A DNA stretch of 33,969 nucleotides from an uncultured Clostridia bacterium (GTDB taxonomy: Bacteria; Bacillota; Clostridia; Oscillospirales; Oscillospiraceae): contig CALYTB010000008.1 in assembly GCA_945486035.1 (NCBI GenBank), positions 1-33,969 of the forward strand, read 5' to 3'. The notes under the pieces are model-generated. The model searched no databases and was not told the origin of the DNA. It worked only from the letters and a program-made list of their open reading frames with translations. Every line of letters begins with the position of its first letter. The stretch's first letter is position 1. Both the position numbers and the translations under genes were made by a program. Below are positions 20,385-33,910 of the stretch, one piece after another.

Positions 20385-20631
20385 TATAATTATGTGCTTA
20401 TCGGCTTAACTCAGCAAAACGACAAATTGTTATCAACCGCGCTTTCCTGTAGGGTGCGGTCATGACCGCACTGCTCACGTTCGATGTGGAAAATGTTGGG
20501 TTTAACCGCAAAACGATACCGCTCTATCCCGTAAGGTTTTCGGGGCGGTCATGACCGCCCCCTACAGAGGCCAGAGAAAACAACAAATGTTCTGAGAAGC
20601 TGAGGAAAGCCAATAAGAACATAAAACTATA
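20385..20631. repeat. Modular intergenic repeat R2 (outer ends + type-II core)
   Basis: ATGTGCTTATCGGCTTAACTCAGCAAAACGACAAATTGTT ... CTGTAGGGTGCGGTCATGACCGCA ... GGGGCGGTCATGACCGCCCCCTACAG ... AAACAACAAATGTTCTGAGAAGCTGAGGAAAGCCAATAAGAACAT. Confidence 0.85.
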
Positions 20632-22860: not shown

Positions 22861-23167
22861 GCTTAACGGAACAGAAAATTGTTGTTTACAGTTTTCAAAC
22901 GCACTTCGTCCTTACTGTAGGGGAGCCATTCATGGCTCCCGTAGAGCAGTACGTTTTTGCCGAAGTGCGGAGCAATATCGGAAGATTTCACTGCTGGGAG
23001 TGGTGAAATGCGCAGCGAATCAGAATTACAATGATTGCCAGTGGCGATCATTCCATAATTCAAATGAATGGCTCCCCTACAGCAGGATTTAGGCGTTTTT
23101 GATCATTCTGAAATGGTACCAAAATTGTCAATTGTTAATTGTCAATTCAAAACAACAATTTATCATT
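22861..23167. repeat. Modular intergenic repeat R3 (outer ends + type-III core)
   Basis: AAATTGTTGTTTACAGTTTTCAAACGCACTTCGTCCTTACTGTAGGGGAGCCATTCATGGCTCCC ... GAATGGCTCCCCTACAGCAGG ... CAAAACAACAATTTATC. Confidence 0.75.
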
Positions 23168-23217: not shown

Positions 23218-23381
23218 GGGAAGCTCTGATTAAATCGGCAAGAGCTGACAGCGAGAGATTTTGCTTCCTCAGAAAGTTTGGAAAATCGAGGAATACTGTA
23301 TGTATTTCCGATTTTCCAAACTGCACTGAGGGAGCAAAAGATCCGCTGCTCAGCCGTAGACGATTTATTCAGAGGTTCCTT
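23218..23381. repeat. About 164-bp long imperfect palindrome
   Basis: GGAAGCTCTGATTAAATCG pairs with CGATTTATTCAGAGGTTCC (17/19); AGTTTGGAAAATCG (23275-23288) pairs perfectly with CGATTTTCCAAACT (23309-23322); GATTTTGCTTCCTCAG pairs with CTGAGGGAGCAAAAGATC. Confidence 0.8.
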
Positions 23382-29561: not shown

Positions 29562-29606
29562 AAAGCTTATCGGGTTAACTCAGCAGCACAACATATTGTT
29601 GTTTCG
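29562..29606 (+). repeat. Solo end of the modular repeat family (R4)
   Basis: AAGCTTATCGGGTTAACTCAGCAGCACAACATATTGTTGTTT matches left ends at 20393, 33371 and 33675; no matching right end seen. Confidence 0.7.
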
Positions 29607-33131: not shown

Positions 33132-33204
33132 AATTCTTGTTCAATACAGAATGCGAATATCCGCTTGATGAAGCTAACGGACAAATTATTGTTCATACAA
33201 TCGG

Positions 33205-33372
33205 TTTTAGTAAGCTGAACAAATTGGCGTTTGAATATTTCAAATGCGTTTCGTCCTTGCTGTAGGGGAGCCATGAATGGCTCTCCTACAGCAAGGACGA
33301 AGTGCGTCTGAAAACTGTAAACACCAATTTACCGAACAACTGAGTAAAGTCAATATGCACATAATATAATAT
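33205..33372. repeat. Modular intergenic repeat R5 (type-III core as a compact palindrome)
   Basis: CGTCCTTGCTGTAGGGGAGCCAT-ga-ATGGCTCTCCTACAGCAAGGACG (33252-33299, one mismatch in 23-bp arms); right end ACTGAGTAAAGTCAATATGCACATAATAT. Confidence 0.85.
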
Positions 33373-33672
33373 GCTTATCAGGTTAACTCAGCTTCCCGAT
33401 AAATTGTTGTTTGTAAAGATATGCTGTCATTGCGAACCAGTGCGCACACTGGTGTGGCAATCCCCCAGATGAATGGAACCAGGTAACGATTTCTACCAAA
33501 AAACGCAGTGTTTCCCATTCCTGTAGGGCAATTGTCGATACATTTCCCCACTAACCGGGGGATTGCCACACCAGCGTGCGCGCTGGCTCGCAATGACAGC
33601 GTATATTTGGTGTGCACTTTCAAACACCAATTTGTCGGCTTGCTGACTTAAGCCGATATGCACATAATATAA
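33362..33672. repeat. Modular intergenic repeat R6 (outer ends + type-I core, inverted relative to R1)
   Basis: GCTTATCAGGTTAACTCAGCTTCCCGATAAATTGTTGTTTG; core 33424-33599 (176 bp); right end ACACCAATTTGTCGGCTTGCTGACTTAAGCCGATATGCACATAATAT. Confidence 0.9.
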
Positions 33673-33910
33673 TGTGCTTATCGGGTTAACTCAGCAAGGC
33701 GGAAAAGCGGAGCTTGCCGGAATGCTTTCGTAGGGGCGGCTATTAGCCGCCCGCAGCCTTCCGGTTCTGATAGCACTGCGTTCTAATGGAAATACGTAAG
33801 AATTGGAACGTATCAGGCGGCTGATAGCCGCCCCTACGGTGGTGTTTGCAATCCTTCAAGCACCAGTTGATCGGGAAGCTGAGTTAAGCCGATATGCATT
33901 TAATATAAAG
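33660..33910. repeat. Modular intergenic repeat R7 (outer ends + type-II-like core)
   Basis: GTGCTTATCGGGTTAACTCAGC ... CGTAGGGGCGGCTATTAGCCGCCC ... GGCGGCTGATAGCCGCCCCTACG ... GGGAAGCTGAGTTAAGCCGATATGCATTTAATAT. Confidence 0.88.

Follow-up and report, generated by a model that had tools for sequence, protein, structure and literature searches.

Tandem MITE-like repeats with IS1595-type ends and varying hairpin cores in a genome of the Oscillospiraceae

Introduction

In bacteria, the ends and the interior of a MITE family are generally assumed to share one line of descent. The repeats described here resemble MITEs such as Nezha, Correia/NEMIS and RUP in being short, non-coding and strongly folding, with inverted terminal repeats, a target duplication and a putative helper insertion sequence, but they differ in that one end pair carries several unrelated cores and that the cores vary between species at a fixed position. 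With the IS1595 insertion sequences they share the ends, the 8-bp AT-rich duplications and, in several relatives, a transposase between matching ends; unlike these, the elements of the array encode nothing and hairpin cores replace the transposase gene. IS1595-family elements are reported to produce AT-rich 8-bp duplications with the strictest AT at both edges (PMC8101967; PMC7835479), and the AT-rich 8-bp duplications found here agree with these hallmarks.

A modular organization is known in the streptococcal BOX elements, made of boxA, boxB and boxC; in S. suis the same boxB occurs between boxA-C or boxE-F ends (PMC3049150). Compared by architecture only (PMC3049150), they are similar to the present repeats in that end and inner modules vary separately; however, BOX elements differ from one another mainly in how many copies of a single inner repeat they contain, whereas here unrelated hairpins interchange within a fixed inverted box. 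REP/BIME and Rickettsia palindromic elements are numerous palindromic intergenic repeats, as are the box-only elements considered below, but the ended elements differ from them in their IS1595 ends and 8-bp duplications. The literature searched, largely open-access papers, gave no description of such a repeat system. The ends, the inner boxes and the hairpin cores of the present repeats each vary on their own, and a pair of related species differs in the core at a kept position, so that the way in which small repeats gain and exchange their interiors can be tested directly.

Organization of the R5-R6-R7 Array

The window, that is the whole stretch of 33,969 nucleotides under analysis, is contig C8 of the draft genome G000 (2.46 Mb, 273 contigs, 78% complete). 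As an earlier note on this DNA had reported, it contains three short repeats, R5, R6 and R7, arranged head to tail; the array spans 33142-33908, encodes no proteins and includes four copies of a 20-bp end box, two on the + and two on the - strand. Its features are the following:

33142-33149 (no strand): possible left target duplication of R5, CAATACAG, 5/8 against TAATATAA; decayed or unrelated
33153-33358 (+): R5, composite element, decayed and nested
33153-33174: outer left end of R5, a decayed relative of the 20-bp box
33183-33193: partial AAATT(A)TTGTT box of R5
33196-33215: nested E-type end of R5 (E = GACTATCGGTTTTAGTAAGC, 2 mismatches), adjoining the broken AAATTG box
33221-33232: inner box of R5, AAATTGGCGTTT
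about 33250-33302: hairpin core of R5, GGGGAGCC
33319-33330: right inner box of R5, AAACACCAATTT
33339-33358: C-type right end of R5, 4 mismatches to the 20-bp box
33362-33369 (no strand): target duplication common to R5 and R6, TAATATAA
33370-33664 (+): R6 including 3-nt tips, with an 8/8 target duplication
33373-33392 (+): left end box of R6, followed by linker TTCCCGAT
33401-33412: left inner box of R6, AAATTGTTGTTT
33415-33608: hairpin core of R6, CATTGCGA
33622-33633: right inner box of R6, AAACACCAATTT
33642-33661 (-): right end box of R6
33665-33672 (no strand): target duplication common to R6 and R7, TAATATAA
33673-33900 (+): R7 including 3-nt tips, with family copies in G000:C17 and G031
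33676-33695 (+): left end box of R7
about 33728-33840: hairpin core of R7, GGGGCGGC
between core and right end: decayed CACCAGTTG box of R7
33878-33897 (-): right end box of R7
33901-33908 (no strand): right target duplication of R7, TAATATAA

The terminal inverted repeats of R6 and R7 match the box at 17-20 of 20 positions on both sides, and the description of each repeat as bounded by the box and its inverse is correct for these two elements; it does not apply to R5, in which the left end is decayed, a second end type is nested and the right end has 4 mismatches. As previously noticed, the three cores are different hairpins (GGGGAGCCAT in R5, CATTGCGA in R6 and GGGGCGGC in R7); the core of R5 is about 90% identical to dozens of copies in G000, and an intact AAATTGTTGTTT box is present in R5 and R6 but not in R7. 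When folded as single-stranded DNA, all three are far better than shuffled sequence, with z values of -7.6 for R5, -12.9 for R6 and -8.7 for R7. No open frame of at least 90 codons overlaps the array, in agreement with the transposase-free appearance noted before, and Rfam and tRNA searches of the window gave no matches. Allowing up to 3 mismatches, the window has six copies of the 20-bp box, the four of the array included (expected 0.01; none of 100 shuffles reached six).

The R6/R7 junction quoted earlier is found without a single difference at 33642-33695; its palindromic form, also described there, simply follows from two ends in inverted orientation meeting across an AT-rich 8-mer. The identical 8-mer, TAATATAA, is found at R5/R6, at R6/R7 and on the right side of R7, and the facing boxes are exactly 14 bp apart at both junctions and in G000:C20; a similar junction between an R6-like and an R7-type element in G031:C143 has boxes 13-14 bp apart, depending on the alignment. 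The single copy of TAATATAA between neighbours is the expected remainder of repeated insertion into a target duplication, and the array would have been built by successive insertions into one 8-bp target copy. Insertion into one another's target duplication would explain the junctions that had been read as fused ends, but the unit lying between the elements is the 8-bp duplication itself.

Outer Ends and Their Relation to IS1595

The earlier note had left room for ends confined to this locus; in fact, the 20-bp box has 84 matches in G000 (up to 3 mismatches). At up to 2 mismatches, 11 of 60 relatives contain it, every one a member of the same genus, and 24 genomes outside the genus, other families included, have no match. 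A scan of named genomes recovered the box mostly in Oscillospiraceae-type metagenome assemblies and additionally in isolates such as Pseudoflavonifractor phocaeensis. The ends measure about 23 bp (TRTGCTTATCGGSTTAASTCAGC). The target duplication was evaluated on 48 pairs of facing ends, from G000 stretches and relatives, by comparing the 8 bp that start 3 nt outside the box: 30 pairs are identical at 8/8 positions and 35 at 7/8 or more, against about 2.5% with shuffled partners, and the positions adjoining the 8 bp match about as often as the biased composition predicts. A 10-bp duplication, indicated by the first alignments, was rejected, only the central 8 positions exceeding the matching predicted from composition; the impression of 10 bp is due to a conserved A...T flanking the 8 bp.

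Related ends flank full IS1595-family elements (L032 in G018, L199 in G012, L195 in G031, L210 in Pseudoflavonifractor, L213 in Avoscillospira and L193 in G026), and the transposases enclosed by these ends have the IS1595 zinc ribbon and/or DDE domain (Zn_ribbon_IS1595, DDE_Tnp_IS1595; Pfam and NCBIfam matches). The ends of L032, L199 and L210 are 1-2 mismatches from the box of the array and those of L195 are D-type; L199, L210 and L195 have 8/8 target duplications. The IS1595 transposase (PF12762) is present in G031 (L195) and had no match in G000, a genome 78% complete in 273 contigs, so that its absence may be due to loss or to incompleteness.

Of the target duplications and empty sites that the earlier note had suggested looking for, duplications and one empty site were found. 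An R6-like element with a perfect duplication lies at G000:C5:16602-16889, and the collinear sequence of G031 (L215) runs through without the element; the flanks are 84-90% identical between the two genomes, the spacer itself being diverged. Three spacers of G000:C49 hold ended elements and their G031 counterparts hold different repeats; for one of them, a diverged second G031 copy holds no repeat. This gene region of G000:C49 has two versions in G031 (C47 and C124), about 93% and about 80-87% identical to G000, which differ in spacer contents, reflecting paralogy or a mixed assembly.

R6 and R7 combine inverted ends, an 8/8 duplication and no coding capacity, such ends are present in multiple copies, and a filled and an empty site are known for the copy at G000:C5; the assignment of R6 and R7, with R5 as a decayed member, to MITE-like non-autonomous elements with IS1595-type ends is strongly supported. 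From these sequence comparisons we strongly infer that the ended elements have moved and, because of the end identity, the 8-bp duplications and the empty site, we infer that a related IS1595-family transposase would move them in trans, duplicating 8 bp of AT-rich target. Since no transposase was found in G000, for this strain the claim is limited to elements that work like IS1595-mobilised ones.

Independence of Cores and Ends

When boxes are sorted by the hairpin inside them, each of the end variants A, B and C is found with several cores, and end variant and core show no association (n=59, permutation P=0.48). The R7 type is instead a coherent family that keeps ends and core together: a second G000 copy is 98% identical, and G031 has about a dozen full or near-full-length copies, most of them 86-92% identical. 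The interpretation as a modular non-autonomous family, proposed earlier, is supported; cores that always co-vary with their own ends, named there as what would speak against it, are found in the R7 type and are refuted for the main class both by this test and by unrelated cores at the same position in G031. The mix of cores differs between ended and box-only elements (P=0.006), and further hairpins, different again, lie between the ends in other species of the genus. The boundary of the swap is sharp at the AAATTG box, and the linkers outside the box are near-constant. At G000:C97:6619-6914 and at L035 (G002) the cores look like joins of two hairpin kinds, which suggests that recombination may occur inside the stems as well.

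The AAATTG Box Layer

The GAYAAATTGKTGTTTR box sits inside most ends, and in R6-type elements an inverted pair of it bounds the cassette. The end-bounded elements had been described by the earlier note, which missed this far more numerous AAATTG-bounded layer. Exact copies of GAYAAATTGKTGTTTR number 479 in the 2.46-Mb draft G000, 432 in the sister species G031 and 20 in another species, G033, with zero in the other genomes searched, and offer a natural comparison of repeat expansion within a genus. In the stretches read, about 330 kb chosen for holding matches and not a genome-wide random sample, 191 of 287 boxes have no outer end. No target duplication of these box-only elements was detected at any offset in 58 pairs, the best offset being at chance level, and IS1595 transposition therefore does not explain them. 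The flanks of the 191 box ends without outer ends show a weak symmetric motif, GCRGNNNGAY, with conservation dropping sharply at the box, and the inner linkers of ended elements (CCCGAY) fit this motif. Insertion of box-only elements into pre-existing hairpins found no support, the complementarity of the flanks being no more than the common motif gives. D-type ended elements insert into the box itself, as at G000:C85:4110-4286, where the 8-bp duplication ATTGTTGT comes from the box. AAATTG-box elements also occur at L250-L268 of G033, the species with only 20 exact boxes; their cores are of other kinds and their lengths range from about 74 to 190 bp.

Same-Position Elements in Two Species

Six positions were compared in detail between G000 and G031, both metagenome assemblies or drafts, and at each of them the two genomes have a box-bounded element in roughly the same place. 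Four of the six contain unrelated cores, a fraction that is not a rate since the sites were found by inspecting loci to hand and not in a blind survey. At G000:C159:3973-4149 both junctions align without offset and the core is unrelated to that of G031. A collinear region of about 17 kb in G000:C1 includes four same-position elements in single contigs: in spacers 1, 2 and 4 the elements lie at nearly the same place, have cores unrelated to those of G031 and differ by 2-3 nt in the distance to the anchor where one exists (spacers 2 and 4 have no right anchor), and in spacer 3 the cores are related, with the right anchor at equal distance and no near left anchor. In C68 (against L247) the cores are also related; only the left junction corresponds, as the right ends do not align.

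At G000:C231 the right junction matches G031 and the cores differ. G000:C168 and L223 of G031 are almost the same over flank, end, linker and box, after which the interior changes abruptly; the G031 contig breaks off inside this element. Two further comparisons, G000:C49:5138 with G031:C102 (different core, similar ends) and G000:C44 with L244, were not counted as exchange because independent insertion into the same spacer is equally likely.

The existence of cassettes with and without ends, together with cores that differ between species at a given position, leads to the proposal that cassettes with several hairpin cores, ended or not, would trade cores from one dispersed box to another, homologous recombination or gene conversion at the common boxes being the most likely route. 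The same-position sites are best read as exchange in place; its live rival is that elements inserted separately at a target they favour.

Alternative Explanations

We consider it probable that ended MITE-like elements are moved in trans by an IS1595-type transposase and that their cores are swapped by recombination at the boxes. Several points weigh against this account: no IS1595 transposase was found in G000, box-only elements lack a target duplication, both key genomes are metagenome assemblies or drafts, in R7-type copies the core stays with its ends, core make-up differs between ended and box-only elements, and different cores at the same position could have arrived by separate insertions at a favoured site. 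The last is at the heart of a reading that we regard as quite possible, even if we lean the other way, in which the AAATTG cassettes are themselves mobile, make no target duplication and prefer the site GCRGNNNGAY, composites being cassettes landed inside a short IS1595-type mini-element; it is compatible with the account above, or would replace its exchange step by repeated insertion at one spot. The flank consensus with its conservation drop at the box, the 58 box-only pairs without duplication, the fit of the CCCGAY linkers to the motif and the presence of the elements in three species and their absence from the other genomes tested are consistent with mobile cassettes; however, no empty 56-bp host mini-element without cassette is found among the 84 end matches, no autonomous relative with these boxes was found, and flank complementarity does not exceed what the motif gives. 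A more tentative and rather doubtful extension is that the AAATTG units could form a cassette system, with hairpin modules swapped in place at several hundred sites by dedicated or recombination-driven exchange and the IS1595-type ends acting as an optional outer vehicle that spreads the cassette it holds.

Elements with only terminal repeats in common with a helper element are an established pattern among MITEs, and the array could accordingly consist of several independent MITE families that have IS1595-type ends in common only because one transposase moves them, without any core exchange. The R7 type behaves in this way, and across the genus end-bounded elements contain many unrelated cores; nevertheless, independent families appear unlikely, as core type does not track end variant, the swap stops abruptly at the AAATTG box and the linkers beyond it hardly vary, G000:C168 and L223 have the same site, end and left flank with a different interior, and same-position box elements have unrelated cores. 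The strong folding of R5, R6 and R7 and the location of several box elements about 10-30 nt downstream of apparent stop codons, in a position that the two species share, would fit repeats kept for a hairpin role in RNA (terminators, 3-prime ends), their fixed positions being due to selection and not to common insertion; the lack of Rfam matches, the unrelated core sequences in the same place and the fall of box copies from about 450 to zero within one genus make this improbable. Many contigs end inside these repeats and G031 has a second, diverged version of one region, as would occur if collapsed or mis-joined repeats mimicked modularity, but such an assembly or binning artefact is very hard to reconcile with the dozens of copies that have perfect 8-bp duplications and site-specific flanks, with the four same-position elements of the roughly 17-kb collinear region in single contigs and with the recurrence of this end architecture in other species that were assembled independently.

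Other Repeats in the Window and Nearby

Three further elements of the same kinds are present in the window:

20396-20618 (+): end-bounded element whose core differs again, GGTGCGGTCATGACC; 6/8 target duplication, TATAATTA/TAAAACTA
22876-23161 (+): box-only element without outer ends, GGGGAGCC core; the corresponding G031 spacer is without the element
29565-29604 (+): solo left end (box and ATATTGTTGTTT) with no partner, not seen in the G031 counterpart

Another imperfect palindromic repeat (GGAAGCTCTGATTAAATC ... GATTTATTCAGAGGTTCC) is located at 23229-23378 of the window and is missing from the matching G031 spacer; the stretch around it has dozens of matches in genomes of the same genus. A repeat of about 169 bp (AAGGCAACACCGC ... 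GCGGTGCTGCC) at L318:13453-13621 (G000:C1) has many copies in G031, mostly 91-98% identical, and is missing from the collinear G031 spacer C2:55356-55452. Finally, short AATTGACAATTGACAATT runs occur beside or inside elements in many spacers of G000 and G031 (e.g., L296:5080-5110), possibly representing a further small repeat module.
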